Source: Flavobacterium sp. 245
GTDB taxonomy: Bacteria; Bacteroidota; Bacteroidia; Flavobacteriales; Flavobacteriaceae
NCBI RefSeq assembly: GCF_004362055.1
Contig: NZ_SNXB01000017.1
Span: 1 to 64,000 of the forward strand
DNA length: 64,000 bases
Direction of reading: 5' to 3'
Positions 7,441 to 23,543 of this stretch are shown here, one piece after another; within the stretch, counting starts at the first letter, position 1; each line of letters starts with the position of its first letter. The notes under the pieces were generated by a model. The model had not been told where the DNA came from, did not search any database, and saw only the letters and a list, made by a program, of their open reading frames with translations. The translations under genes were made by a program, and so were the position numbers.

Positions 7441-9474
7441 ATGACAACTAATAAATCCGCATCATTGTTTGAAAGCAAACAGGTAAAAGAAGCCTTAGTG
7501 CAATCTTTTGTCAAGTTGAACCCAAAATTGATGATCAAAAATCCGGTAATGTTCACCGTAGAAATTGGAACTGCCATTATGTTTGCTGTTTGTGTTTCCA
7601 TTTTGATGGGAGCAACAGATCAGGGCAGTTTTACTTATAATTTAATTGTGTTCTTAATTTTACTAGCAACACTTTTGTTTGCCAATTTCGCCGAAGCTAT
7701 TGCCGAAGCCAGAGGGAAAGCACAAGCCGACAGTTTACGAAAAACACGTGAAGAAACGCCTGCAAGACAGATTTTACCAAACGGAGAAATCAAAAATATC
7801 AGTTCTTCGCAATTAAAAAAAGGAGATATTTTCTATTGCGAGTCAGGTGATCTAATTGCAACTGACGGAGAAATTATCGAAGGTTTGGCAACCATTGACG
7901 AAAGTGCCATTACAGGAGAAAGTGCTCCAGTAATTCGCGAAGCCGGTGGCGATAAATCATCTGTAACAGGAGGAACAAAAGTGTTATCTGATAAAATTAA
8001 AGTAATTGTAACTTCTGAACCTGGCGAAAGCTTTTTAGATAAAATGATTGCTTTGGTTGAAGGTGCGAGCCGTCAGAAAACGCCAAACGAAATTGCCTTA
8101 ACCATTTTATTAGCCGCATTTACCTTAATCTTCGTGATTGTGTGCGTTACGCTAAAACCGTTTGCCGACTATGCAAATGCGCCCATCACGATTGCGGCTT
8201 TTATTGCTCTTTTTGTTTGTTTGATTCCAACTACAATTGGAGGTTTACTTTCTGCAATTGGTATTGCCGGAATGGATAGAGCATTGCGTGCCAACGTAAT
8301 TACAAAATCTGGAAAAGCGGTAGAAACTGCCGGAGATATTGACGTATTGCTTTTAGATAAAACCGGAACAATTACTATCGGGAACAGAAAAGCAACCAGT
8401 TTTTATCCTACTAAAGGAGTTTCAGAAGAAGATTTTATAAAATCTGCGGTGTTAAGTTCACTAGCAGATGACACTCCGGAAGGGAAAAGTATCGTGGAAT
8501 TGGCTGGAGCCGAAACTGCCAATAAATTATCAATTGAAGGTGCTACTTTAATCAAATTTACCGCAGAAACCAGAACTTCCGGAGTTGTCTTAAAAGACGG
8601 AACCAATATTCGAAAAGGTGCTCAGGATGCTGCAAAAAACATTGCTGCTCAAGCAGGAAATAGTTTCCCAGAAGATACTGCCCAAAAAGTAATCGACATT
8701 TCTTCAAACGGAGGAACGCCATTAGTGGTTATTAAAAACAATCAGGTTCAAGGTGTTATCGAATTACAGGATATCATTAAAACCGGAATGAAAGAACGTT
8801 TTGACCGATTGAGAAAAATGGGTGTAAAAACGGTAATGGTTACTGGCGATAATCCGCTAACAGCTAAGTTTATTGCCGAAGCTGCGGGTGTAGATGATTT
8901 TATTGCCGAAGCGAAACCTGAGGATAAAATGAACTACATCAAAAATGAGCAAAATCTTGGTAAATTGGTTGCCATGATGGGAGACGGAACGAATGATGCT
9001 CCTGCCCTTGCGCAAGCCAATGTTGGTGTTGCAATGAATAGTGGAACGCAAGCGGCTAAAGAAGCCGGAAACATGGTCGATCTTGATAATGATCCAACGA
9101 AACTTATCGAAATTATCGAAATTGGAAAACAGCTTTTAATGACTCGTGGAACTTTAACTACTTTTTCTATTGCAAATGACGTTGCGAAATATTTTGCTAT
9201 TGTTCCTGCTCTTTTTATTACTGCGATTCCTGCGCTTCAAGGTTTAAATATTATGCATTTACATAGCCCGGAAAGTGCCATTTTATCTGCTGTAATTTTT
9301 AACGCGATTATCATTCCGATTTTGATTCCACTTGCGTTGAGAGGTGTTGATTATAAACCAATTGGAGCAAGTGCAATCCTAAAAAGAAATCTTTTGATCT
9401 ATGGTTTAGGGGGATTGATTATTCCATTTATCGGGATTAAACTGATTGATTTACTTGTTGCTGTATTTATTTAA
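7441..9474 (+). CDS. kdpB: KdpB, P-type ATPase subunit
   Basis: 677 residues, P-type ATPase of class IA. Seen: actuator motif TGES ([11 protein letters not shown], about 155-165), phosphorylation loop DKTGTIT with Asp at about 306, nucleotide-binding domain with KGAQDAAK near 395, and hinge motif [10 protein letters not shown] near 520. It hydrolyses ATP to drive K+ uptake through KdpA. All catalytic residues expected are present, and size matches the family (682 in E. coli). Confidence 0.97.
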
Positions 9475-9475
9475 G

Positions 9476-9640
9476 GTTCTGAGATGCTAAGGCTCTAAGA
9501 TACTAAGGTTTTTCTCTTAGAGTCTTAAAAATCCTAGAATCATTAAAAAACTAAAATTATAAACATAGACTTTGATTACTAAGCTTCTAAAAAAAAAACT
9601 TAGAACCTTAGCAACTTAGTCCCTTAGAATCTCAAAAAGA
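9476..9640. repeat. Inverted repeat in the kdpB-kdpC spacer
   Basis: The left side reads GGTTCTGAGATGCTAAGG..CTAAG and the right side CTTAG..CTTAGCAACTTAG..CTTAGAATCTCA, forming an imperfect palindrome of repeated CTAAG/CTTAG words. A scrap of the same family (GAGTCGCTAAGGTTCTAAGG) follows kdpC at about 10209. No gene inside. Confidence 0.6.
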
Positions 9641-10219
9641 ATGAAAAATATATTCTCATTATTAAAATTGACGCTGCTTACCGTAATTCTGTTTGCAGTT
9701 ATTTATCCTCTTGCGATTTACGGAATCGCACAAATTGCTCCGAATCAAGGAAAAGGAGAAACTGTTTCGGTTAACGGAAAAGTGGTTGGATACCAAAAAA
9801 TTGGTCAGAAGTTCGATAAGTCGAATTATTTCTGGGGAAGACCTTCGGCTGTTGATTATAACGCTGCAGGAAGTGCAGGAAGCAATAAAGGACCAAGCAA
9901 TGCTGAATATTTGGCTTTGGTTCAAAAAAGAATTGATACACTTTTACTAGTTCATCCGTACTTGAAAAAATCTGATATTCCATCAGATATGGTTACGGCT
10001 TCCGGAAGTGGATTGGATCCGAATATTTCTCCACAAGGTGCTTTGATTCAGGTAAAACGTGTTGCTAAAGAACGAAAATTAGCCGAAGATAAAGTAAAGG
10101 CTTTGGTGGAATCTAAAATTAATACGGCTGTTGTGGGTCCTGAAACAGTTAATGTTTTGGAATTGAATATGGCGCTTGATGCGCTTTCTGGAAAAGGTTC
10201 TGAGGTACTGAGTCGCTAA
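9641..10219 (+). CDS. kdpC: KdpC, potassium-transporting ATPase subunit C
   Basis: 192 residues. One N-terminal membrane span (LTLLTVILFAVIYPLAIYGI) is followed by an extracytoplasmic domain with family signatures: FWGRPSAVDYNAAGSAGSN near 65-83, ASGSGLDPNISPQGA near 119-133 and LNMALDAL near the end. KdpC assists KdpB during the transport cycle. Length matches the family (190 in E. coli). Confidence 0.96.
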   Translation: MKNIFSLLKLTLLTVILFAVIYPLAIYGIAQIAPNQGKGETVSVNGKVVGYQKIGQKFDKSNYFWGRPSAVDYNAAGSAGSNKGPSNAEYLALVQKRIDTLLLVHPYLKKSDIPSDMVTASGSGLDPNISPQGALIQVKRVAKERKLAEDKVKALVESKINTAVVGPETVNVLELNMALDALSGKGSEVLSR

Positions 10220-10250
10220 GGTTCTAAGGTTTTTTTTAACTCATTTTTTG

Positions 10251-10332
10251 GTCATTGCGAGGAACGAAGCAACCACATTTACAAAATCAGCTTTGACATT
10301 ATTAGTGAGGTTGCTTCGTTCCTCGCAATGAC
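10251..10332. repeat. Inverted-repeat element with 24-bp perfect arms
   Basis: Arm GTCATTGCGAGGAACGAAGC plus AACC (10251-10274) is repeated perfectly in inverse at 10309-10332, with 34 bases between. This word, starting CATTGCGAGGAACGAAGCAA, is a widely dispersed repeat I know from several phyla, so it may be a small non-autonomous mobile element or a remnant of one. It has no visible target-site duplication. Confidence 0.8.
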
Positions 10333-10375
10333 AAACTAGATGGAAAATTAGAACTAAAAACTTCCTTTTACCCTG

Positions 10376-10488
10376 AGTGCCCTAGCCCTGATAGAAGCGG
10401 TATCCTTTTTAGGCTATTGAAAAGATCTTGTTTACCATAAACAATCTGCCTAAAAAGATATAGCGGATAGCAGGAAATAGCTCCTTAA
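10376..10488 (+). ncRNA. Structured intergenic repeat, copy 2 (Flavo-1-like)
   Basis: GAGTGCCCTAGCCCTGATAG opens the element; the variable hairpin pairs TTTTTAGGC (10406-10414) with GCCTAAAAA (10448-10456); then AGATATAGCGGATAGCAGG and AGCTCCT close it. The flanks match the copy at 34381 closely while the hairpin differs in sequence and loop length. It lies between kdpC and the porin gene, together with the inverted repeat at 10251, filling a 324-base gap without protein genes. Confidence 0.55.
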
Positions 10489-10543
10489 AAAACTACTAAT
10501 AAAAATTAATACGCCTTTTTTACCCCAAATAATAAAAACAAAA

Positions 10544-11620
10544 ATGAAAAAAATAATACTTACTGCTTTAATCGCATTCGGTTTTAGCAATTTACATGCA
10601 CAGGAAGAATCGAAAAGTCCTTTAACATTTTCAGGTTACGTCGAAACTTATTACAGTTATGATTTTGGAAAACCAGACGATCATACACGCCCGGGCTTTT
10701 TTTACAATTATAATCGAAGTAATGAAGTGAACCTGAATTTAGGTATGGCAAAAGTGAATTATACGAAAGATAATATCCGCGGAAATTTTGCTTTGATGGC
10801 CGGAACTTATGCACAATATAATATGTCGGCTGAACAGGACTTATTGAAAAATGTATATGAAGCCAATGTTGGTGTGAAGATTTCGCAAAGCCATAATTTG
10901 TGGATTGATGCGGGAATTATGCCTGCACATATTGGTTTTGAAAGTGCGATTGGAAAAGATTGCCAGACTTTGACGCGAAGCATTTTGGCTGAGAATTCTC
11001 CTTATTATGAAGCTGGAGTAAAAATTGGTTACACCTCTGAATCTGGTGCCTGGTATTTGGCCGGAATGTATTTGAATGGCTGGCAACGTATCCAAAAATT
11101 AGACGGAAATCATACACCTGCTTTTGGAACGCAAATTACGTATAAACCAACGGATAAGGTGGCTTTGAACTGGAGTACGTATATTGGAAATGAACAGCCG
11201 GACATTGATAAAAAGTGGCGTTATTTCAACAACTTTTACGGACAATTTAAAGTAACAGACAAAACAAATATTACAGCTGGTTTTGATGTTGGATCGCAAC
11301 AATCGGCTAAAAGCAGTAACAAATATGACACTTGGTTTTCGCCAGTTTTGATTCTACAATACAAACCAGTTGACAAAATTCAACTTGCAGTAAGAGGCGA
11401 ATATTATAGTGACGAAAAAGGTGTAATTATCGCAACAGAAACTGAAAACGGTTTTAAAACTTACGGATTTTCGGCTAACTTTGATTACTTAGTTACTGAT
11501 AATGTAATGTTTAGAATTGAAGCCAGAAATCTTTCGAGTAAAGATGAAATATTTACAAAAGACAATCTTCCAACGGATACGAATACGTTTGTAACGACTT
11601 CGCTGGCAATTTCTTTTTAG
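10544..11620 (+). CDS. Outer-membrane beta-barrel porin associated with kdp
   Basis: 358 residues with a clean signal peptide (MKKIILTALIAFGFSNLHA, cleavage before QEE). The remainder alternates polar and aromatic residues typical of beta strands and ends in a terminal Phe (ISF), the usual outer-membrane barrel signature. It resembles the OmpL-like beta-barrel porin-2 family (NLWIDAGIMPAHIGFES; GMYLNGWQRIQ). Lying between kdpC and kdpD, it probably lets K+ cross the outer membrane under the same conditions; that role is inferred from position. Confidence 0.85.
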   Translation: MKKIILTALIAFGFSNLHAQEESKSPLTFSGYVETYYSYDFGKPDDHTRPGFFYNYNRSNEVNLNLGMAKVNYTKDNIRGNFALMAGTYAQYNMSAEQDLLKNVYEANVGVKISQSHNLWIDAGIMPAHIGFESAIGKDCQTLTRSILAENSPYYEAGVKIGYTSESGAWYLAGMYLNGWQRIQKLDGNHTPAFGTQITYKPTDKVALNWSTYIGNEQPDIDKKWRYFNNFYGQFKVTDKTNITAGFDVGSQQSAKSSNKYDTWFSPVLILQYKPVDKIQLAVRGEYYSDEKGVIIATETENGFKTYGFSANFDYLVTDNVMFRIEARNLSSKDEIFTKDNLPTDTNTFVTTSLAISF

Positions 11621-11698
11621 CTTTAAGCTATAGGCTTTAGGCAGTAAGCTTTTGAAAAGTCAAACTGCCTAAAGCTTAAAGCTTATGGCCTAAAGCAT
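11619..11698. repeat. Inverted repeat in the porin-kdpD spacer
   Basis: GCTTTAAGCTATAGGCTTTAGG on the left faces CCTAAAGCTTAAAGC and GGCCTAAAGC on the right. The whole 84-base spacer is occupied, and it partly covers the porin stop codon. Confidence 0.65.
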
Positions 11699-11704
11699 AT
11701 TTTT

Positions 11705-12826
11705 ATGGAACAGAAAAATAACGCACAGCACTTTCTCGATTTAATTCAGAAATCACGGAAAGGAAAGTTTAAAGTCTACATTGGGATGAGTGCCGGTGTG
11801 GGGAAGACTTTTCGTATGCTTCAGGAAGCGCATTCGTTGTTGAAGAATGGAATTGATGTAAAAATTGGTTACATTGAAACGCATATGCGGAAGGAAACGC
11901 ATGAACTTTTAGCTGGTTTGCCTGTGATTCCACGGCGAACCATTTTCTATAAAGGGAAACAGCTGGAAGAACTAGATGTACAGGCAATTATCAACCTTAG
12001 ACCTGAAGTTGTAATTGTCGATGAACTGGCACACACCAATGTTGAAGGAAGCAAAAATGAAAAACGCTGGCAGGATGTTTTAGAAATTTTAGATGCCGGA
12101 ATCAATGTTATTTCTGCGGTTAATATTCAGCATATTGAGAGTTTGAACGAGGATGTAAAACGGATTACTAATATTGATGTTCAGGAACGAATTCCGGATA
12201 ATGTTCTGCGTCTGGCTGATGAAGTCGTGAATATCGATTTGACATCGGAAGATTTGATTGCGCGTTTGAAAGAAGGTAAAATTTACACGCCAGATAAAAT
12301 TCAGACCGCTTTAACGAACTTTTTTAAATCGGAACAAATTTTACAATTACGCGAATTGGCTTTAAAAGAAGTAGCAAGCCAAGTAGTTCGGAAAGTCGAA
12401 AATGAAGTACCTCAACTGCATGCTTTACGCCATGAGAAACTTTTGGCATGCATTAGCAGTAATGATAAAACGGCAAAAATTGTAATTAGAAAAGCGGCTC
12501 GACTGGCGAGTTATTATAACGGAAGCTGGTATGTTTTGTATGTAGAAACACCAAAAGAAAGCAGTACCAAAATTGCATTAGACAAACAAAGACATTTAAT
12601 TAATAACTTTAAACTGGCCGTACAATTAGGCGCGGAAGTTATCAAATTAGAGCATAAAAATATTGCCGATGCGATTTTAATAGCGGTAGAAGAAAAACAA
12701 ATTACAACTGTCTGCATTGGGAAACCGCATTTGAATTTATTTAAAGTAATTTTGTCTACAACGATTTTCAGACGTTTATTAAATCGCCTGTCTTTATCGA
12801 ATGTGGATCTTGTTATTTTGTCATAA
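11705..12826 (+). CDS. kdpD: KdpD sensor domain protein without a kinase
   Basis: 373 residues corresponding only to the N-terminal cytoplasmic part of KdpD: the KdpD domain with Walker A GMSAGVGKT (about 26-34), the DELAHTN Walker B-like motif near 105, and then a universal-stress-protein domain (about 245-373). The membrane spans, GAF and histidine kinase parts of the classical 900-residue KdpD are absent. It is not a truncation: the frame ends cleanly and the next gene supplies a complete kinase. This split layout is, to my knowledge, usual in Bacteroidota. Probably senses K+ limitation, nucleotides or c-di-AMP and signals to the kinase at 12925. Confidence 0.92.
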   Translation: MEQKNNAQHFLDLIQKSRKGKFKVYIGMSAGVGKTFRMLQEAHSLLKNGIDVKIGYIETHMRKETHELLAGLPVIPRRTIFYKGKQLEELDVQAIINLRPEVVIVDELAHTNVEGSKNEKRWQDVLEILDAGINVISAVNIQHIESLNEDVKRITNIDVQERIPDNVLRLADEVVNIDLTSEDLIARLKEGKIYTPDKIQTALTNFFKSEQILQLRELALKEVASQVVRKVENEVPQLHALRHEKLLACISSNDKTAKIVIRKAARLASYYNGSWYVLYVETPKESSTKIALDKQRHLINNFKLAVQLGAEVIKLEHKNIADAILIAVEEKQITTVCIGKPHLNLFKVILSTTIFRRLLNRLSLSNVDLVILS

Positions 12827-14845: not shown

Positions 14846-15619
14846 TTATGTATTCGAAGTATTATTCTTAATCTCCATAACTTCTCTTTTTACTTCTAAA
14901 AGCAAATCTTTCATACTTTGTGATTCTGTCTGTTCATGACGTCTATCACTTCGGCCGATGTTACATTCGTATTCCCATATTTCTAGAATATCTGAAGCTT
15001 TTACTTCGTAATTTGGATAAAAGCGATTGTCAGATTCTAACACTAAAGCATTCTTTTTATTTTTATTGAGACGTTTGTAAACCATACCTTCATTTTTGGT
15101 AATCAGTATATAGGTCTTTCCATCCATAACCTCGCCCAGCCTTTCTACATAACGGCCAATAATAATAGAACCGTCTTCGTGTGGTGGCATCGAATCACCT
15201 TCTACAGGAAAACCTCTGTGTTTCCCCGGACCCAAAAACGGAAGCGAAACCTGTTGTAAACTTTCAATATATTCCGGATCAGCATAGCCGTTTAGATAAC
15301 CTGCTTTTGCTTTTTGACTTACAATTTCGATGAAATTTTCTCCGAATCTATCTACTTGTATGGGTAAAATTAGTCGGTTTCCTTCTAATTTTATTAAATT
15401 TTCTACATCTATTTTGCGTATATCGACAGACAGTATCAGGTCAATACTCATATGAAAATATAAAGCAATCTGCTTTAAAATATCATACGGTGCTTCTGAA
15501 GTTCCGTCTTCGTATTTAACGTATCTACCTCTGGTAATTTTTAGGTTTTCAGCTAATTTCTCTTGTGATATTTTATGCTTAACCCTCAATGCTCTGATAT
15601 TGTCTGAAAATAAGGACAT
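14846..15619 (-). CDS. LexA-like repressor (XRE helix-turn-helix plus S24 peptidase)
   Basis: 257 residues from MSLFSDNIRALR; the frame is open further upstream, but that part covers the divergent promoter. Residues 1-65 are an XRE helix-turn-helix (KISQEKLAENLKITRGRYVKYE). The C-terminal half is a peptidase S24 (LexA/UmuD) domain with nucleophile Ser about 142 in EGDSMPP and Lys about 180 in MVYKRL. An Ala-Gly pair at about 105 (KAKAGYL) is a plausible self-cleavage site. It should therefore bind DNA and inactivate itself on the RecA filament during DNA damage. Divergent from the polymerase genes, sharing an 84-base promoter region. Not LexA proper: the DNA-binding domain is XRE, not the LexA winged helix. 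Confidence 0.9.
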   Translation of the reverse strand: MSLFSDNIRALRVKHKISQEKLAENLKITRGRYVKYEDGTSEAPYDILKQIALYFHMSIDLILSVDIRKIDVENLIKLEGNRLILPIQVDRFGENFIEIVSQKAKAGYLNGYADPEYIESLQQVSLPFLGPGKHRGFPVEGDSMPPHEDGSIIIGRYVERLGEVMDGKTYILITKNEGMVYKRLNKNKKNALVLESDNRFYPNYEVKASDILEIWEYECNIGRSDRRHEQTESQSMKDLLLEVKREVMEIKNNTSNT

Positions 15620-15645
15620 AATTAATTTGTTATAATTTGGAACAT

Positions 15646-15653
15646 CAAATATA
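15646..15653 (-). promoter_or_regulatory. -7 element of the LexA-like repressor gene
   Basis: The minus strand reads TATATTTG (15653 to 15646), matching TAnnTTTG. It gives a start near 15639 and a leader of about 20 bases. No TTG at the usual -33 distance; the GTAC word at 15673-15676 falls in that region instead, suggesting autoregulation. Confidence 0.45.
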
Positions 15654-15670
15654 CAAAAAAATGTTATCAT

Positions 15671-15692
15671 CTGTACTAATTTTGTTGTACAA
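15671..15692 (+). promoter_or_regulatory. Promoter and putative operators of the mutagenesis operon
   Basis: TAATTTTG (15677-15684) is a full -7 match; transcription would start near 15691, only 13 bases before the ATG at 15704. Two GTAC-centred words frame it: CTGTAC (15671-15676) and the perfect palindrome TTGTACAA (15685-15692), centres 14 bases apart. A protein bound there would block this promoter and overlap the upstream region of the divergent repressor promoter. Operator function is inferred. Confidence 0.5.
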
Positions 15693-15703
15693 AAACAAAG
15701 GAA

Positions 15704-16885
15704 ATGGCAAGGGCGATTGTACACATGGATTTGGATACCTTTTTTGTATCCTGCGAAAGGCTAACTAACTCAGAATTAAACGGTATTCCGTTGATTATTG
15801 GTGGTGGCGATCGCGGTGTTGTAGCCTCTTGTTCGTATGAAGCACGTTACTTTGGAGTGCGTTCTGCGATGCCTATTCACATGGCGATGAAACTTTGTCC
15901 GCAAGCCAAAGTAATGAAAGGCGATATGGAATTATACTCTCAATTATCGCATGATGTTACTCAGGTCATTCAGGAAAAAGCACCGATTATGGAGAAAGCG
16001 AGCATCGATGAATTCTATCTTGACATTACCGGAATGGATAAATTTCACGGAAGCTATAAATGGACAAATGAACTCGCTCAATCCGTTATTAAAGAAACCG
16101 GATTGCCAATTAGTTTTTCATTATCTGTCAATAAAACCGTTTCTAAAATTGCTACCGGCGAAGGCAAACCGGTAGGAAATTTACAAATCCCGGAAAACGA
16201 GGTACAAGGTTTTTTGAATCCGTTGTCGATTCAAAAAATTCCTATGGTTGGCGCTGTCACTTTTCAGCTTTTATCCCGAATCGGTGTTCGTAAAATTCAA
16301 ACTTTAGCTGAGATGCCTCCTGAAGTTTTACAACAGATGATTGGCAAAAACGGATTGGATATTTGGAAAAAAGCCAACGGAATCGATAATACTCCCGTAG
16401 AACCTTATACCGAAAGAAAATCAATTTCTACAGAACATACTTTTTCTCAGGATACTATCGATATCGAAAAACTCAAAAGAGTACTTATAGGCATGGTCGA
16501 AAAACTTGCTTTCCAATTGCGATCAGAACAATGGCTGACCTCCACTATTACGGTTAAAATACGCTACGCCAATTTTGATACTGAAACCAAACAATGCAAA
16601 ATTGCCTACACTTCAGCAGATCATATTCTGACCAAAAATGTAATGGAACTTTTTGAAAAATTGTACCAACGCCGTATGCGATTACGCTTAATTGGTATTC
16701 GCTTTAGCGGATTGGTTCGCGGTACCTATCAAATTGATCTTTTTGAAGATACGGAGGAAATGTTATCACTTTATGAAGCTATGGATAAAATGAAAAGCCG
16801 TTATGGTTTTGATGCCGTAATGCGCTGTGCCGGAGCTATTTTTAAGCCTAATAATAAAGATGAAATTTTAAAACGTAAAAAATAA
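15704..16885 (+). CDS. dinB: Y-family DNA polymerase (DinB/Pol IV-like)
   Basis: 393 residues. Palm motifs are intact: HMDLDTFF with Asp 9, and KASIDEFYLD with Asp 102-Glu 103, so unlike ImuB it should be an active translesion polymerase. Steric and finger segments (YEARYFGVRSAMP) are standard. A perfect beta-clamp-binding word QIDLF lies at 343-347. Only two bases separate it from the dnaE-like gene. It should copy past lesions with low fidelity under control of the adjacent repressor. Family certain; the dinB name is by similarity, as Bacteroidota have several Y-family genes. Confidence 0.93.
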   Translation: MARAIVHMDLDTFFVSCERLTNSELNGIPLIIGGGDRGVVASCSYEARYFGVRSAMPIHMAMKLCPQAKVMKGDMELYSQLSHDVTQVIQEKAPIMEKASIDEFYLDITGMDKFHGSYKWTNELAQSVIKETGLPISFSLSVNKTVSKIATGEGKPVGNLQIPENEVQGFLNPLSIQKIPMVGAVTFQLLSRIGVRKIQTLAEMPPEVLQQMIGKNGLDIWKKANGIDNTPVEPYTERKSISTEHTFSQDTIDIEKLKRVLIGMVEKLAFQLRSEQWLTSTITVKIRYANFDTETKQCKIAYTSADHILTKNVMELFEKLYQRRMRLRLIGIRFSGLVRGTYQIDLFEDTEEMLSLYEAMDKMKSRYGFDAVMRCAGAIFKPNNKDEILKRKK

Positions 16886-16887
16886 TC

Positions 16888-19800
16888 ATGTATCTCAACT
16901 GTCATTCCTTTCACTCTCTGCGTTACGGCACGATTCCTCTCGATAAACTAGTTGAGGAAGCTGTTTCTTGTGGTGTAGAAGCAATGGCATTAACAGATAT
17001 TAATACCGTTACGGGAATTTATGATTTTATAAGAGCTTGTGAATCTAAAGGAATTAAAGCTTTAGTCGGAATGGAATTTCGCTGTAATCATCAATTTCGA
17101 TATATTGGCTTAGCTAAGAATGCCGAAGGTTTAGGCGAAATGAATCGTTTTTTAACGAATCATAATTTCAGCGGAGAAGCTTTGCCTTTAATTGCTCCCG
17201 AATTTGAATCGGTTTTTGTGATTTATACTTTAGAAAATTCTCCGAAAACGCTTCGTAAAAATGAATTTATCGGCATTCGAACAGATGAAGTTTCAAAACT
17301 TTTTACATCAGAACATAAAAATCAAATTTCTAAAATGGTTGTCCTTCAACCGGTAACTTTTAGAAATAAAAAAGAATTTAACCTGCACAAAATTCTGCGT
17401 GCGATTGATACCAATATTATTTTATCAAAATTGACAGAAGCTGATTATTCCAGAACTTCTGAAAAAATGTTGCCTTTAGAATCGCTTTTGCCTTTCTATG
17501 AAAAATACCCTGAAATTATTGACAACACACAGAAAATTATTGATTCCTGTGATTTTCAGTTTGATTTTTCAATTAAAAGAAATAAAAAATTCTTTACCGG
17601 AAGTCGTGAGAATGATATCAAAAAACTAACAGAATTGGCCGAAGAAGGTTTTGAATGGCGCTATGGAAAAGAAAACAAAATTGCTCGAAAACGTGTAGAA
17701 AAAGAATTAAAAGTTATTGACCAATTAGAATTCAGCGGGTATTTTTTAATTACCTGGGATATTGTTCGATACAGCAACAGTCAGGGATTTATGCATATTG
17801 GGCGTGGAAGCGGTGCCAACAGCATTATTGCCTATTGTCTCGGAATTACCGACATCTGTCCAATCGAACTCGATTTGTATTTTGAACGTTTTTTAAATTT
17901 AAATCGAAAAAGTCCACCCGATTTTGACATTGACTGGAGTTGGAAAGAACGCAATACCATTTTAGAATATATTTTCGAAACTTATGGTCGTGAGCACGTT
18001 GCTTTTTGCGGAACTAATGTCGAATTCAAACACCGATCTATTTACAGAGAAGTCGGAAAAGTTTTTGGTCTTCCGAAAGAAGAATTGGATATGCTGGCCA
18101 AAAATCCGATGGCATTACACGAAACTAATTCTATCGTGAACTTGGTACAGAAATATAGCATGATGATGGGTAAATATCCCAACCAACGCAGTATGCACGC
18201 TTGTGGGATTATCATTTCTGAAGAACCCATTACCAATTATACGCCATTGGAAATGCCACCAAAAGGATTTCCAATTGTACTTTTTGACATGCACATTGCG
18301 GAAGAAATTGGTTTTGATAAATTCGATATTTTGAGCCAACGCGGGATTGGACATATCGATGACAGTGTAAAACTGATCGAGAAAAACAGAGGAATTAAAG
18401 TAGACATTCGCAATACTTCTATTTCTAAAGATGAAGCGATCTGCAATGTTCATTTGGCACAAGGCAAAACGATTGGCTGTTTTTATATCGAAAGCCCGGC
18501 GATGCGCGGTTTATTACGCCGATTGAATTGTGATAATTATAAAGTTTTGGTTGCCGCGTCTTCGATCATTCGGCCTGGAGTTGCTCAATCCGGTATGATG
18601 AAAGAATATATTTTCCGTCATAATTATCCAGACCAATTTGAGTATTTCCATGAGGTTTTCAAAGAACATCTTGGCGAAACGTACGGCATTATGGTGTATC
18701 AGGAAGATGTGATCAAAATTGCCCAGCATTACGGAGGCGTTCCTGCCGCTGATGGCGATATCCTGCGCCGTGCCATGTCTGGAAAAGGGCGTTCTTTAGA
18801 AGCTTTACAAAAAGTAAAAGATAATTTCTTTGCCTCTTGTGCCAGAAAAGGACATCCTGAAGCACTGAGTCAGGAAATTTATCGTCAGATTGAATCCTTT
18901 GCCGGATTTTCATTTTGTAAAGCCCACTCCGCTTCTTATGCGGTAGAAAGTTATCAGAGTTTGTATCTCAAAATTAATTATCCTGTTGAGTTTATGGTGG
19001 CGGTCATCAACAATCAGGGTGGATTTTATCGAACCGAAGTTTATGTACACGAAGCACGAATGTCTGGCGGGACAATCCTAAATCCATGTGTGAATAAGAG
19101 CGAATATCAAACTACTGTTTATGGAAATGATATTTATTTGGGTTTTATGCATTTGCAGGGTTTAGAATCGAAAACCGCAAATTTGATTGAATCAGATCGG
19201 GAGAAAAACGGTGACTTTCTTTCTTTGGAAGATTTCATTAATCGAATACCAATCGGAATTGAAAGCATTAAAATTTTGATTTTTATTGATGCTTTTCGCT
19301 TTACAGGAAAAACAAAAAATCAGCTTTTAGTCATTGCGAGTTTGCTTTTAAACAATTTCAAACCCGAAAACAGAAGTTTGATGTTATTGCAGGAACCCGT
19401 TAAAGAATATAAACTTCCAACTTTGGAACGTTCTCTGTTTGAAGATGCTTTTGATGAAATTGAATTATTGAATTTTCCTGTTTCATGTACTGTTTTTGAT
19501 TTGCTTCAGATCAAATACCGTGGCGATATTATGGCTAAGGATTTAGTGGCACATCATAAAAAACAAGTAAAAATGCTGGCTTATTTAATATCCAGAAAAC
19601 AAGTCCCAACCAAAAAAGGAAACATGTATTTCGGCACCTGGATCGATCACGAAGGCACTTATTTTGATACCGCACATTTTCCGGATTGTCTGGCAGAATA
19701 TCCTTTTCAGGGCGGAGGCTGTTATTTGCTTTTGGGAAATGTAGAAGTTGATTATCATTTCCCGACAATCACCATTATCAAAATGGCTAAGATGCCTTTT

Positions 19801-19947
19801 ATTCCGGATCCGCGTTATATGGATGCGAAAGATCAGTTTAAAACACAGCGTCAAATTAAGGAAGATGTGAGTCCGACGCATCGGGAACCGTATCCGCAGG
19901 GACATGAAATCAACCTACCAAGACACCGAATGAAATTTCAAAAATAA
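16888..19947 (+). CDS. Second DNA polymerase III alpha subunit (DnaE2/ImuC-like)
   Basis: 1019 residues, shorter than replicative DnaE (about 1160 or more) and close to error-prone DnaE2. An N-terminal PHP domain (HSFHSLRYG at 6-14, ALTDINTV near 35) lacks several metal ligands and looks inactive for proofreading. The polymerase core has GRGSGANSIIAYCLGI near 310 and the catalytic DxD in PDFDID near 344-349. The C-terminal OB-fold region is present. Placed directly after a Y-family polymerase and near a LexA-like repressor, it fits the inducible mutagenesis role established for imuA-imuB-dnaE2 in other phyla. Confidence 0.9.
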   Translation: MYLNCHSFHSLRYGTIPLDKLVEEAVSCGVEAMALTDINTVTGIYDFIRACESKGIKALVGMEFRCNHQFRYIGLAKNAEGLGEMNRFLTNHNFSGEALPLIAPEFESVFVIYTLENSPKTLRKNEFIGIRTDEVSKLFTSEHKNQISKMVVLQPVTFRNKKEFNLHKILRAIDTNIILSKLTEADYSRTSEKMLPLESLLPFYEKYPEIIDNTQKIIDSCDFQFDFSIKRNKKFFTGSRENDIKKLTELAEEGFEWRYGKENKIARKRVEKELKVIDQLEFSGYFLITWDIVRYSNSQGFMHIGRGSGANSIIAYCLGITDICPIELDLYFERFLNLNRKSPPDFDIDWSWKERNTILEYIFETYGREHVAFCGTNVEFKHRSIYREVGKVFGLPKEELDMLAKNPMALHETNSIVNLVQKYSMMMGKYPNQRSMHACGIIISEEPITNYTPLEMPPKGFPIVLFDMHIAEEIGFDKFDILSQRGIGHIDDSVKLIEKNRGIKVDIRNTSISKDEAICNVHLAQGKTIGCFYIESPAMRGLLRRLNCDNYKVLVAASSIIRPGVAQSGMMKEYIFRHNYPDQFEYFHEVFKEHLGETYGIMVYQEDVIKIAQHYGGVPAADGDILRRAMSGKGRSLEALQKVKDNFFASCARKGHPEALSQEIYRQIESFAGFSFCKAHSASYAVESYQSLYLKINYPVEFMVAVINNQGGFYRTEVYVHEARMSGGTILNPCVNKSEYQTTVYGNDIYLGFMHLQGLESKTANLIESDREKNGDFLSLEDFINRIPIGIESIKILIFIDAFRFTGKTKNQLLVIASLLLNNFKPENRSLMLLQEPVKEYKLPTLERSLFEDAFDEIELLNFPVSCTVFDLLQIKYRGDIMAKDLVAHHKKQVKMLAYLISRKQVPTKKGNMYFGTWIDHEGTYFDTAHFPDCLAEYPFQGGGCYLLLGNVEVDYHFPTITIIKMAKMPFIPDPRYMDAKDQFKTQRQIKEDVSPTHREPYPQGHEINLPRHRMKFQK

Positions 19948-19952
19948 CCACG

Positions 19953-21377
19953 ATGATTTTACAAGAACAAAAACAGGTTTTGCGTTATAGTAAAGAGATG
20001 AAAAAGCAAGAATACGCCATAGTAGATATAGAAACCACCGGTGGAAATGCCAGTGGCAGTCGCATTACTGAAATTGCCATTATTATACATGACGGTGAAA
20101 AGGTAATCGATCGCTTCGAAACGCTTGTTAATCCGGAAAGAGAAATTCCGCTTTCTATTTTTGGATTAACTGGTATTAACAACGAAATGGTTGCCAACGC
20201 TCCAATCTTCGATGACATTTCAGAAAAAGTACTAGAAATGCTGACCGACCGTATTTTTGTTGCTCATAACGTCAACTTTGATTACTCTTTTGTGCGTCAT
20301 CAATTGGAACAAGCGGGATTTAAATGGACGGCAAGAAAACTGTGTACCGTTCGCGTAGCACGAAAAATCAAACCGGGATTAACATCTTACAGTTTGGGAA
20401 AACTTTGCTATTCGCTTGACATTCCTTTAGAGAATCAACACCGGGCTGGCGGAGATGCAGATGCCACCGCCATATTATTTTCCCGATTACTCGAATGGGA
20501 CGAGGAAGGCGAGATAGCAAAAATGGTCAAGATGACTTCACAAGATCAGCGTTTACCACCTAACCTGCCTCCCGAAGATTTTAATAATTTACCCGAGAAA
20601 CCAGGTGTCTATTATTTTTATAATCAAATGAATAAGGTGATTTATGTTGGAAAAGCGATCAACTTAAAAAAACGTGTAGCCTCTCATTTTAGCGGTCATA
20701 AAATTAATCCGCAAAGACAGCATTTCTTGAGAGATATTCACGCTATTTCCTTTGAAATTTGTGCGAACGAATTAATGGCACTTTTGTTAGAATGTACCGA
20801 AATAAAACAACTTTGGCCGACTTACAACAGAGCATTAAAACGTTTTGAAGCCAAATTCGGTATTTATCAATATGAAGCAAGAAACGGATATAAATATTTG
20901 GCTGTTGGAAAACTAACCAAATTTCAGACTTGCATTCATGAATTTAATAGTTTGTTTAATGCTATCGATTTATTGAGAAGCCTTTCTGAACAATTTGAAA
21001 TTGACCAAAGATTCTGCAAATATTCCAGACCTGAAGAAGGAGATTTTTTTCAGAATACCGAAGTCAAAAGTCTGCCGGATGTTTTGCTCCACAACGAGCA
21101 AGTCGACAATGCCATTGAATTTTTATTACAAAACAGACCCACGTTTGCCATTATAGAAAAAGGAAGAACGGCAGACGAACGCAGCTGTATTTGGGTTGAA
21201 AACGGACATTTTTACGGAATGGGTTATATTCCGTCAGATGTAGCAATTACTGATCCATCCGAAGTAAAAAATTATGTCACGCAGTACAAAAGCAATCAAT
21301 ATATGGTGCAATTGATTTTTGCTTACGCAGAAAAATATCCGGGTAAAATATTCTTTAACAAACAGTTCTTGAAATAA
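19953..21377 (+). CDS. DnaQ-type exonuclease fused to a GIY-YIG endonuclease
   Basis: 474 residues. Residues 15-175 are a DEDD 3 prime-5 prime exonuclease: ExoI IVDIETTG near 22-30, ExoII AHNVNFDYSFV near 104, ExoIII HRAGGDADAT near 163-172. A GIY-YIG nuclease domain follows (KPGVYYFYNQ to GKAINLKKRV, about 214-245), as in the N-terminal part of UvrC and in Cho. The remaining 200 residues are unassigned. Such fusions are annotated as Pol III epsilon-like or Cho-like proteins. Five bases after the dnaE-like gene, so it may proofread for, or incise lesions alongside, these polymerases. An alternative start is at 19998. Confidence 0.88.
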   Translation: MILQEQKQVLRYSKEMKKQEYAIVDIETTGGNASGSRITEIAIIIHDGEKVIDRFETLVNPEREIPLSIFGLTGINNEMVANAPIFDDISEKVLEMLTDRIFVAHNVNFDYSFVRHQLEQAGFKWTARKLCTVRVARKIKPGLTSYSLGKLCYSLDIPLENQHRAGGDADATAILFSRLLEWDEEGEIAKMVKMTSQDQRLPPNLPPEDFNNLPEKPGVYYFYNQMNKVIYVGKAINLKKRVASHFSGHKINPQRQHFLRDIHAISFEICANELMALLLECTEIKQLWPTYNRALKRFEAKFGIYQYEARNGYKYLAVGKLTKFQTCIHEFNSLFNAIDLLRSLSEQFEIDQRFCKYSRPEEGDFFQNTEVKSLPDVLLHNEQVDNAIEFLLQNRPTFAIIEKGRTADERSCIWVENGHFYGMGYIPSDVAITDPSEVKNYVTQYKSNQYMVQLIFAYAEKYPGKIFFNKQFLK

Positions 21378-21448
21378 GAATAGGAAACTGTGTAAATATA
21401 TATGTTTAAAAAGCTGTAAATTTAATAGCACAACTAATTAAATCTACT

Positions 21449-22225
21449 ATGAAAATAGCCACTTATAATGTAAACGGAGTCAACGGAAGATTAAATGTAT
21501 TACTGCGCTGGTTGGAAGAAGCCAAACCTGATATTGTTTGTCTGCAGGAATTAAAAGCGACTCAGGATAATTTTCCGATTAAAGCGATTAATGACGCCGG
21601 CTACAACGCTATTTGGCACGGACAAAAACAATGGAATGGTGTTGCTATTCTCGCCCGAAATATGGAGATTGAAGAAGTAACCCGAATTCTTCCAGGAGAT
21701 GAAGAAGATATTCAAAGTCGTTATGTGGAAGCTTTGATAAACGGAATCGTAATTGCCTGTCTTTATTTGCCAAACGGAAATCCGTGGCCGGGACCAAAAT
21801 TCGAATACAAATTAAAATGGTTTGATCGTCTGGCTCATCGTGCATCTACATTGATTGATTTAAAAATTCCTGTAATACTAATTGGCGATTATAACGTGAT
21901 ACCAACGGAACTGGATGTTTATAAACCTGAAAAATGGGTAAACGATGCCCTTTATAGAACTGAAGTACGAGAGGCATTTAAGAATATTGTCTCGCAAGGA
22001 TGGACAGATGCGATTCGAAAACTATATCCCGATGAAAAGATTTACACTTTTTGGGATTATTTCAGAAATGCCTACGAGCGAGATGCAGGACTTCGAATTG
22101 ATCATTTTTTACTGAGTCCACAAATAGCTACAGCTTTGCGCTCGGGCGGTGTCGATCGTCACGTTCGAGGCTGGGAAAAAACAAGCGATCATGCGCCAGT
22201 ATGGATTGAAATTGACAAAAAATAA
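21449..22225 (+). CDS. xth: Exodeoxyribonuclease III / AP endonuclease
   Basis: 258 residues, endonuclease/exonuclease/phosphatase fold. Seen: NVNGVNGR at 8-15, metal-binding Glu in CLQELKAT near 33, LIGDYNVIPTELD near 148-160, and terminal TSDHAPVWI with the catalytic Asp-His. Cuts 5 prime of abasic sites and degrades 3 prime ends in base-excision repair. It follows the nuclease gene by 71 bases and precedes the alkB-like gene by 11, extending the repair island. Confidence 0.95.
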   Translation: MKIATYNVNGVNGRLNVLLRWLEEAKPDIVCLQELKATQDNFPIKAINDAGYNAIWHGQKQWNGVAILARNMEIEEVTRILPGDEEDIQSRYVEALINGIVIACLYLPNGNPWPGPKFEYKLKWFDRLAHRASTLIDLKIPVILIGDYNVIPTELDVYKPEKWVNDALYRTEVREAFKNIVSQGWTDAIRKLYPDEKIYTFWDYFRNAYERDAGLRIDHFLLSPQIATALRSGGVDRHVRGWEKTSDHAPVWIEIDKK

Positions 22226-22236
22226 AGGAGAAAACA

Positions 22237-22863
22237 ATGACATTATTTAACGACACCGAATTATTTGCAACTGGTTTGGCAGGAAAAAAAGTATTTGACA
22301 TTCCTGATTCCGAATTGATTTTGATCGATAATTTCTTTACAAAAGAAGAATCTGATCGTTTTTATGAACGAATACTTCGCAAGACTAAATGGAGAGAATA
22401 TGAAATGGAAATTTATGATAAAACCTATACAGTTCCTCGAATGATTTCTTGGTATGAAGACAAAGATAATCCTGGAGCAGATCCAAAAGGACCTGACTGG
22501 ACTTATGACTTATTGACTATTCGAGGCCGTGTTGAAAAAGAAACGCAAGTTGATTTTAACAGCCTCCTTTTAAATTTATACCGAAACGGAAATGATGGCG
22601 TAGGCTGGCACAGTGACAAAGAACATAATACGGGACCAAATCCTATTATTGCATCGGTGACTTTTGGCGAAACCAGAATGTTCAGACTTCGTCATAAATA
22701 CAGCAAGGAAATTCCTCAAGTTGAGATTCCGCTACATCATGGTTCTTTTTTATTAATGGCTGGAACAACTAATAGTTTTTGGCAGCATCAAGTTCCTAAA
22801 ACGGCTCGGGATGTTTTGCCAAGGATCAATCTTACCTTTAGGAGAACCAATCGAAAACTTTGA
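22237..22863 (+). CDS. alkB: AlkB-like 2-oxoglutarate/Fe(II) dioxygenase
   Basis: 208 residues of the AlkB family, closer to the ALKBH2/3 and short bacterial type. The Fe(II) triad is HxD in GWHSDKEHNTG (near 127) with distal His in FWQHQVPKT near 188. The 2-oxoglutarate-binding Arg lies in LPRINLTFRRT. RMFRLRHK is the family nucleotide-recognition segment. It directly reverses alkylation lesions in DNA. Eleven bases after xth, probably cotranscribed; it ends the compact repair run. Confidence 0.93.
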   Translation: MTLFNDTELFATGLAGKKVFDIPDSELILIDNFFTKEESDRFYERILRKTKWREYEMEIYDKTYTVPRMISWYEDKDNPGADPKGPDWTYDLLTIRGRVEKETQVDFNSLLLNLYRNGNDGVGWHSDKEHNTGPNPIIASVTFGETRMFRLRHKYSKEIPQVEIPLHHGSFLLMAGTTNSFWQHQVPKTARDVLPRINLTFRRTNRKL

Positions 22864-23022: not shown

Positions 23023-23484
23023 ATGGCATATTCAAACAATGATTTAGCGCGTTTCTTAGATGCGCAGAACAAACTTTATCTTACCGCTTTTTCTGAAATC
23101 AGAAAAGGAAAAAAAGAAACACACTGGATGTGGTTCATTTTTCCGCAAATAAAAGGTTTAGGCAAAAGTGACACAGCAAATCTTTATGCCATTAATGATT
23201 TAAAAGAAGCTACAGATTATTTGGAACACCCAATTTTAGGGAAACATTTAATCGAAATTTCAGAACTTTTATTGACTTTCAAAAGAAAGTCAGCTGATGG
23301 GATTTTTGGCGATTTAGATGCACGCAAATTACGTTCTTCTATGACACTTTTTTCTTTGGTAGAAAATACAAATCCGATTTTTCAGGAAATTCTGGAAGCT
23401 TTCTTCTCAGGAGAATCTGACCCGCTTACTTTGTCTATTATTAATTCAACAATAAAATCATCTGCTGAAGCTGTTGCATTATAA
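23023..23484 (+). CDS. DUF1810 family protein
   Basis: 153 residues beginning MAYSNNDLARFLDAQ. The characteristic DUF1810 segments are present: HWMWFIFPQIKGLG near 35-48, YLEHPILGKHL near 72, and DARKLRSSMTLFSLV near 100-114. The family is cytoplasmic, small and of unknown biochemistry, although distantly related folds have been linked to ADP-ribose or NAD metabolism; I do not claim this here. An upstream TTG in frame lies within the promoter and is rejected. A terminator follows. Confidence 0.88.
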   Translation: MAYSNNDLARFLDAQNKLYLTAFSEIRKGKKETHWMWFIFPQIKGLGKSDTANLYAINDLKEATDYLEHPILGKHLIEISELLLTFKRKSADGIFGDLDARKLRSSMTLFSLVENTNPIFQEILEAFFSGESDPLTLSIINSTIKSSAEAVAL

Positions 23485-23512
23485 AACAGTTTCCAGATTA
23501 TTTGCATCAAAG

Positions 23513-23543
23513 AGACACTGCTTAACTGCAGTGTCTTTTTTTT
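23513..23543 (+). terminator. Terminator of the DUF1810 gene
   Basis: Stem AGACACTGC/GCAGTGTCT (9 bp) with 6-base loop followed by a long T run. Confidence 0.85.

Follow-up and report, generated by a model that had tools for sequence, protein, structure and literature searches.

The repressor, its putative operators and the divergent genes

The 64,000-nucleotide stretch of Flavobacterium sp. 245 analysed here (positions 1 to 64,000 of contig NZ_SNXB01000017.1; hereafter the window) carries a leftward gene for an S24/XRE repressor and, divergent from it, five rightward genes for a Y-family polymerase (PolY), a second DnaE, a DnaQ-type exonuclease/GIY-YIG fusion (exoGIY), exonuclease III (Xth) and an AlkB-type oxygenase (Table 1). 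The list of open reading frames (ORFs) and profile searches placed all six genes where the original prediction had put them, each in the family it had named, and the spacings it gave between the five rightward genes (2, 5, 71 and 11 bases) agree with the ORF coordinates. We consider it highly probable that these genes form an SOS-type mutagenesis-and-repair operon under a LexA-equivalent S24 repressor, with the polymerase core in an exchangeable slot. The gene arrangement around S24 is not chance, because polY and dnaE, or umuD and umuC, recur divergent from S24, and polY recurs beside dnaE, which it adjoins across Flavobacteriaceae. Among the named S24 loci (the best 80 of 565 relatives), the divergent core was polY plus dnaE in 56, umuD plus umuC in 17 and polY alone in three, placing a mutagenic polymerase on that side in 76; four had no such core and none had both types.

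Table 1. Features of the locus, with positions in the window.
Feature	Position	Strand	Basis or remark
S24/XRE repressor (non-canonical LexA type), 257 aa	14846..15619	-	HTH and Peptidase_S24 above cut-off
Operator-like palindrome 1, TGTTATAATTTGGAACA	15628..15644	.	2 mismatches to the genus form TGTTACAATTTGTAACA
Operator-like palindrome 2	15662..15684	+	2 mismatches to TGTTACAATCTGTACTAATTTTG; overlaps promoter -7 element TAATTTTG (15677-15684)
Active-type Y-family polymerase, PolY	15704..16885	+	IMS and IMS_C; SIDEFYLD catalytic motif
Clamp-binding motif QIDLF within PolY	16730..16744	+	regex match
RecA N-terminus-like motif within PolY	16757..16825	+	best PolY placement for the N-terminus of the strain's own RecA
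Second DnaE (DnaE2B type), 1019 aa	16888..19947	+	superfamily model and tree
DnaQ-type exonuclease/GIY-YIG (Cho/UvrC-like) fusion, exoGIY	19953..21377	+	RNase_T and GIY-YIG
Exonuclease III (Xth), lineage-specific member	21449..22225	+	TIGR00195/TIGR00633 above cut-off (exoDNase_III)
AlkB-type 2OG-Fe(II) oxygenase, SOS-linked subtype	22237..22863	+	PF13532
DUF1810 protein (Rv1873 relative, PDB 2jek)	23023..23484	+	syntenic neighbour, membership uncertain
Strong terminator-like hairpin downstream of DUF1810	23509..23540	+	13-bp stem, then T run

The conserved start of the repressor is the ATG at 15619, which leaves an 84-bp gap to polY, and its cleavage bond (Ala106-Gly107), Ser143 and Lys182 were invariant across 16 S24 sequences. 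The gap holds two related palindromes, which lie 33–34 bp apart in most loci of the genus; in the window, the match of palindrome 1 to the genus form and that of palindrome 2 at the 34-bp spacing were each equalled by 0 of 200 shuffles. Palindrome 2 overlaps TAATTTTG, which fits what we take to be the consensus of the Bacteroidota −7 promoter element, TAnnTTTG. Both palindromes, this element and the DUF1810 gene after alkB had been missed in the original prediction. Exact TTAC-N5-GTAA was present in seven of 52 genus loci (0.3 after shuffling). Outside the genus, 11 of 24 family loci whose fetched stretch includes S24 carried CTAC-N5-GTAG upstream of the polymerase pair (shuffled, 0.0), and 16 of 22 whose stretch lacks it carried GGA-N5-TCC (shuffled, 0.5), known from the literature as the flavobacterial SOS motif. 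Many other Flavobacteriaceae genera (L088–L134) have the pair in the reverse order, dnaE-polY, with different operators.

S24 repressors of this family are in print as the 'non-canonical LexA' of Bacteroidetes (Sanchez-Osuna et al., 2021; PMC8565304). In that paper, an Elizabethkingia repressor is reported to bind TTAC-AAATT-GTAA in electrophoretic mobility shift assays, mitomycin C to induce the polymerase gene divergent from it, and the predicted targets to include a GIY-YIG exonuclease, an SOS response associated peptidase (SRAP) and a DinB-DnaE operon. The Elizabethkingia sequence is the reverse complement of the Flavobacterium genus site. The published repressor family and the similarity of the operators suggest that the operon in the window would likewise be under DNA-damage control.

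Several points weigh against assigning the palindromes in this way. The genus form was derived from the same loci that were later scored with it, and each operator in the window is two positions away from it; TTAC-N5-GTAA, with at most one mismatch, is absent from the gap between repressor and polY; and operator 2 had 28 matches genome-wide versus 24 for a reversed control, with no wider regulon seen. The genome-wide matches outside the window and the strain's own second polY-dnaE copy look like background, and therefore no regulon is claimed. The zero-mismatch match of operator 2 was obtained with a pattern modelled on operator 2 itself. Over the whole window, TTAC-N5-GTAA (at most one mismatch) occurred 40 times versus 37.4 expected, that is, at chance level, a sigma-70 promoter scan was uninformative (31 found versus 28.6 expected), and the scan for terminator-like hairpins gave nine versus 7.3 expected.

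The polymerase slot

In six of 101 genus genomes, a UmuC-type polymerase replaces polY-dnaE between kdp genes-S24 on one side and exoGIY-alkB-DUF1810 on the other, with the same operators. One of these loci (L171) is without exoGIY, and umuD was seen in three with ORFs listed; the slot UmuD scored above its model cut-off, and the best model for UmuC was UmuC itself (383.6 versus a cut-off of 431). Among the named S24 loci, umuDC is found for example in F. aquidurense RC62, F. pectinovorum DSM 6368 and F. defluvii DSM 17963, and polY-dnaE in F. piscis, F. johnsoniae CI04 and F. hibernum. A third kind of core occurs in genome G220 (locus L169), where S24, without the kdp flank and 80% identical to the S24 of a polY-dnaE locus (L076), is followed by imuA-imuB-dnaE2-alkB. 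Its dnaE2 scored 1373 versus a cut-off of 939, ImuA had the ImuA model (NF033429) as its best but at 57.7 versus a cut-off of 150, and ImuB had no specific model match. The proposal in the original prediction of a flavobacterial counterpart to imuA-imuB-dnaE2 is supported; the exchangeable core itself, and the additional repressor-less copies described below, including the strain's own second PolY-DnaE copy, had escaped it.

S24 lacked a dnaE within 6 kb in 14 cases: the six umuC loci, L169, one S24-exoGIY-alkB and four S24-alkB arrangements, G165, with none of the genes sought nearby, and G204. The G204 locus (L170; G204:C18, 7740–8854) looks like the remnant of a core deletion, with the end of S24 abutting the end of alkB and DUF1810 following.

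Exchange was analysed at 56 shared-flank loci, comprising the window and 55 of 56 named loci (one was dropped by the flank-gene coverage filter), of which 39 had polY (L187 being cut by the contig end after polY) and 17 umuDC. The fewest core-type changes needed were 13 on the kdpD+kdpHK tree, 13 on the S24 tree, 11 on that of the downstream permease (54 rows) and 13 on that of alkB+DUF1810 (55 rows), compared to means of 14.5–14.8 with shuffled core labels; of 300 shuffles, 55, 58, 4 and 56, respectively, were as low. Core type thus holds little signal of flank history, and somewhat more downstream. Some features of the trees temper this. Collapsing branches with Shimodaira–Hasegawa-like approximate likelihood ratio (SH-aLRT) support under 95 lowered the counts to 10, 5, 8 and 9 changes (40, 18, 13 and 25 of 300 shuffles as low, in the same order), the permease tree retains some core-type signal, as its 4 in 300 indicates, and the flank genes recombine too, so that the change counts are approximate.

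Junctions could be located by comparing seven pairs. The best pair, F. tyrosinilyticum (L205), with umuDC, and Flavobacterium sp. ACN2 (L199), with polY-dnaE, shares 97.2% identity across 3378 bp ending at 10846, which puts the left junction directly downstream of the promoter, and 96.8% across the 4807 bp that begin with exoGIY on the right. The other six pairs have less similar flanks, and there the left junction fell at 10836–10849. Distances between umuC sequences correlated with those of S24 at r 0.25 (48 of 500 permutations as high) and with those of alkB at r 0.53, and dnaE with S24 at r 0.80. Of the genus genomes, 11 of the 41 that have the window-type DnaE also have a umuC (E <= 1e-60), compared to 51 of the 60 that lack it (p 4.7e-9 by Fisher's test, with no correction for kinship); at this threshold there is no umuC in the genome of Flavobacterium sp. 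245.

We somewhat favour the view that the slot is a cassette-exchange site, at which the shared repressor-operator segment and repair tail would let homologous recombination repeatedly swap the entire mutagenic polymerase, and that conjugative elements would spread copies able to plug into the host repressor. Among open-licence papers, as far as their accessible text goes, we found no published account of slot exchange, AlkB linkage or conjugative PolY-DnaE copies in this group. The exchangeable slot is thus unreported as far as our searches reach, and the parts of the operon are of known kinds.

Repair genes and repressor-less copies

The wider comparison covered 102 loci, namely the window, the strain's own second copy and 100 fetched loci (53 from the genus and 47 from the family, the latter 39 best-scoring and eight lower-ranked), which were selected by this DnaE and are hence a non-random sample; two fetched loci hold dnaE fragments only. 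Clustering found dnaE in 99, polY in 98, S24 in 60, exoGIY in 28, alkB in 25, DUF1810 in 19, SRAP in 12 and xth in six. DnaE of the window type occurred in 78 of 149 family genomes at E < 1e-240 (one match, in G147, incomplete), in 42 of 101 genus genomes at E <= 1e-80 (41 full length) and in 45 of 296 phylum genomes at E <= 1e-120.

AlkB is a genuine operon partner. Taking the subtype of the window as alkB genes with at least 58% identity (one being a 72% fragment; the next matches had at most 44%), 37 of 38 in the 101 genus genomes lay within 6 kb of S24 or dnaE, the exception being in G232, and 31 within 3 kb. Of the other AlkB matches, roughly one per genome, inspection by eye found only that of G178 within 10 kb of dnaE or S24. 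Four genomes (L164–L167) have alkB and S24 in divergent orientation and nothing found between the two, and L168 has exoGIY alone in that place. The repair tail of the original prediction thus stands for AlkB and falls for Xth as a general partner: xth was present at six of the 102 loci and 18 of the 80 named ones, all in the kdp-flank clade of the window, and there it follows the flank trees (five, six and eight changes, versus about 15 on shuffling; 11 on the S24 tree). The exoGIY gene, for which many relatives begin at the Met at 19998, was also found beyond S24 at several loci, including some in other genera. The lesion-incising and proofreading roles originally suggested for its product are putative. 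Its architecture is a known one, matched by the DEDD exonuclease models PRK07883 below cut-off; an AlphaFold2 model of it had a mean pLDDT of 60.6 and was not used.

DUF1810 lay within 10 kb of S24 or dnaE for 27 of 68 genus copies, mostly one orthologous series, and was unlinked for 41; it stands beside polY-dnaE or S24 in separate contexts (the clade of the window, G192, G225, G204, G173 and G156/G230/G238). A promoter-like TAnnTTTG precedes the gene in several relatives, and the inspected gaps, judged by eye, show no obvious operator. Because of this promoter-like element of its own, the lack of an obvious operator and the 41 unlinked copies, we rejected DUF1810 as an operon member and leave it as a neighbour. 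The only solved relative that we found is Rv1873 (2jek), and a literature search for DUF1810 returned unrelated papers only.

Flavobacterium sp. 245 has a second polY-dnaE pair (L004; G000:C6:160000-179000, 7712–11979), whose DnaE is 77% identical to that of the window and beside which no S24 was found. Among 53 full-length genus dnaE copies, S24 lies within 3 kb in 36 and not in 17 (two of the latter, in G200:C115 and G182:C13, begin near contig ends). These 17 are spread over 14 genomes, 12 of which have S24 elsewhere; G182, an exception, is only 60% complete. In the 15 copies with a usable upstream region, operator 2 was present with at most five mismatches in 13 and the operators were 33–34 bp apart in 13; of the other two, L062 had seven mismatches in operator 2 and L069 a score spoiled by a wrong ORF start, which also affects the operator score of L053. 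The consensus was read from the same loci, making these scores descriptive and not independent. Conjugative-element neighbours were examined for three copies: the neighbourhoods of the strain's own second copy and of L058 include a gene for the conjugative-transposon protein TraM and one for DUF4138, presumably TraN, and L060 lies near PcfK, PcfJ, SSB and exonuclease VII genes. The pair is also carried by plasmids of Chryseobacterium shandongense (mobilizable), Emticicia (pEMTOL01, conjugative) and Adhaeribacter swui (non-mobilizable). The copies without S24 are probably under the control of the host's S24. SRAP genes were seen near the pair at L049, L051, L055, L057, L066, L120, L134, L265 and L266, and also on plasmids.

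Proposed mechanism, alternatives and known systems

Building on the sequence evidence for the genes, cleavage residues, operator conservation, slot exchange and AlkB linkage, we propose a mechanism in which damage induction, complex formation, control in trans and the roles of the enzymes would be as follows. S24, as the LexA equivalent, would sit on the two operators over the polY promoter, and RecA filaments on damaged DNA would provoke its self-cleavage, releasing polY-dnaE-exoGIY-(xth)-alkB. Tethered to the sliding clamp by QIDLF and to RecA by the RecA-like motif, PolY would act with DnaE2B as an error-prone polymerase, and AlkB and the nucleases would act on lesions. Around UmuD-UmuC in relatives stand the same repressor, operators and repair tail, and in one more distant relative a related S24 and alkB enclose ImuA-ImuB-DnaE2. 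The additional PolY-DnaE copies, some near conjugative-element genes, mostly keep the operators without the repressor, and the host repressor would probably control them.

The slot pattern might instead reflect an ancestral tandem of polY-dnaE and umuDC with differential loss and no exchange; the same junction region in both core types fits this, as does the poor fit of core type to flank trees, which tandem loss would also give. We consider it unlikely, given that both cores are together in none of the 80 named loci, that umuC tracks S24 weakly and dnaE tracks it well, and that the L205/L199 pair, 97% identical, differs cleanly. As for the repressor-less copies, they could have a regulator of their own or be unregulated cargo, a possibility that we doubt without dismissing: two of the 14 genomes have no detected S24 (one of them being the 60% complete one) and the regulator search covered this S24 family only, but 13 of the 15 copies with a usable upstream region keep operator 2 within five mismatches.

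A chance association of alkB, exoGIY and xth with the polymerase pair would suit the low counts of xth and exoGIY (six and 28 of 102 loci) and seems very unlikely against the near-complete linkage of the AlkB subtype, the single linked case among other AlkB matches, the four genomes with S24 and alkB divergent and nothing found between, and the recurrence of exoGIY beyond S24, other genera included. Most improbable is an S24 of prophage type, or a local regulator with no link to DNA damage. Its DNA-binding domain is indeed of the phage-repressor type, according to profiles and to PMC8565304, but its cleavage machinery is complete, family members are reported in the same source to act as SOS repressors, and a mutagenic polymerase is divergent from it in nearly all of the named loci.

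Our preferred reading, a mutagenesis-and-repair operon with an exchangeable core, shares features with several known systems. With the non-canonical LexA system it has in common an S24 domain with a phage-type HTH (HTH_3), the Ala-Gly site and Ser/Lys dyad, a divergent error-prone polymerase and a TTAC-N5-GTAA-like operator; the main text of PMC8565304, as far as available, is without the words alkB, DUF1810, conjugative, plasmid, replace or exchange. The polymerase pair is in print as 'DnaE2B-PolY-RecA' (PMC6511836, PMC12926913), with which the window appears to share an active PolY bearing a RecA-like motif beside DnaE2, the Bacteroidetes setting and the lack of an adjoining ImuA/ImuB-like partner. 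Those papers, in the parts at hand, define the polymerase module, to which the repressor, the repair tail and the Pol V exchange at one locus are added here. The likeness to ImuA-ImuB-DnaE2 lies in a damage-linked DnaE2 with a Y-family partner and in the G220 locus, where that cassette stands between a related S24 and alkB; unlike it, the window has no ImuA found, a Y-family member of apparently active type and a DnaE placed in a separate clade. Model NF033429 found only RecA in the genome of Flavobacterium sp. 245, but it is insensitive, with no control genome reaching its cut-off.

Pol V (UmuD-UmuC) and mobile mutagenesis operons, such as mucAB and rumAB, resemble the system in placing an error-prone polymerase on mobile DNA, and UmuDC occupies the same slot at 17 of the 56 shared-flank loci; they differ in their polymerases and in that control here is probably by S24 and not by classical LexA. 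A plasmid-borne imuABC is known (PMC4151985), and the replacement of Pol V by DnaE2-type polymerases is under debate, with species having both reported (PMC12926913). In the slot, replacement is visible at one locus between nearly identical flanks. Since operon and promoter are the same and the species close, two unrelated damage-induced polymerases could be compared there for their mutation spectra and effects on fitness. If the proposed reading is true, species often exchange the machinery for damage-induced mutation, with control and repair unchanged. The recurrence of AlkB as a partner links alkylation repair with induced mutagenesis in this group.

The Y-family member had been predicted to be intact and clamp-binding, and its sequence agrees, with the catalytic motif kept, and hence no sign of ImuB-type inactivity, and QIDLF present. 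The DE of the catalytic motif was visible in 93 of 96 PolY family members, the other three rows displaying another stretch. The clamp regex matched 38 of the 96 (QIDLF in 35 and close forms in three) and not the other 58, six divergent ones of which have QINLF (five) or QANLF (one). The RecA N-terminus-like stretch follows QIDLF; shuffles as good numbered 0–28 per 1000 in seven other PolYs and 0 in UmuC. Against the proposed RecA contact stand the modest value for PolY of the window (14 of 1000) and that for the L169 ImuB, where a match was expected (163 of 1000).

The DnaE of the window reached no equivalog cut-off, only a superfamily model (error-prone subfamily, 469.5 bits versus a cut-off of 939). 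In a tree of 20 sequences it fell in a clade of 13 pair-type DnaEs (support 100) that excludes the ImuAB-linked DnaE2 and sits with the DnaE2s across the branch (support 100) setting off DnaE1/DnaE3; it thus lies within DnaE2 and outside DnaE2A, as expected for DnaE2B, in what was a quick search, with one long branch (Desulfosarcina) joining the pair-type clade. The PHP domain has a metal-binding HxH stretch, whose first His is replaced by Asn in the window and by Arg in E. coli and is kept in the strain's own DnaE1. This replicative DnaE1 (L272; G000:C1:332500-338500) has an N-terminal DnaQ-like stretch, MYLIFDTETTG..., as read from the alignment.

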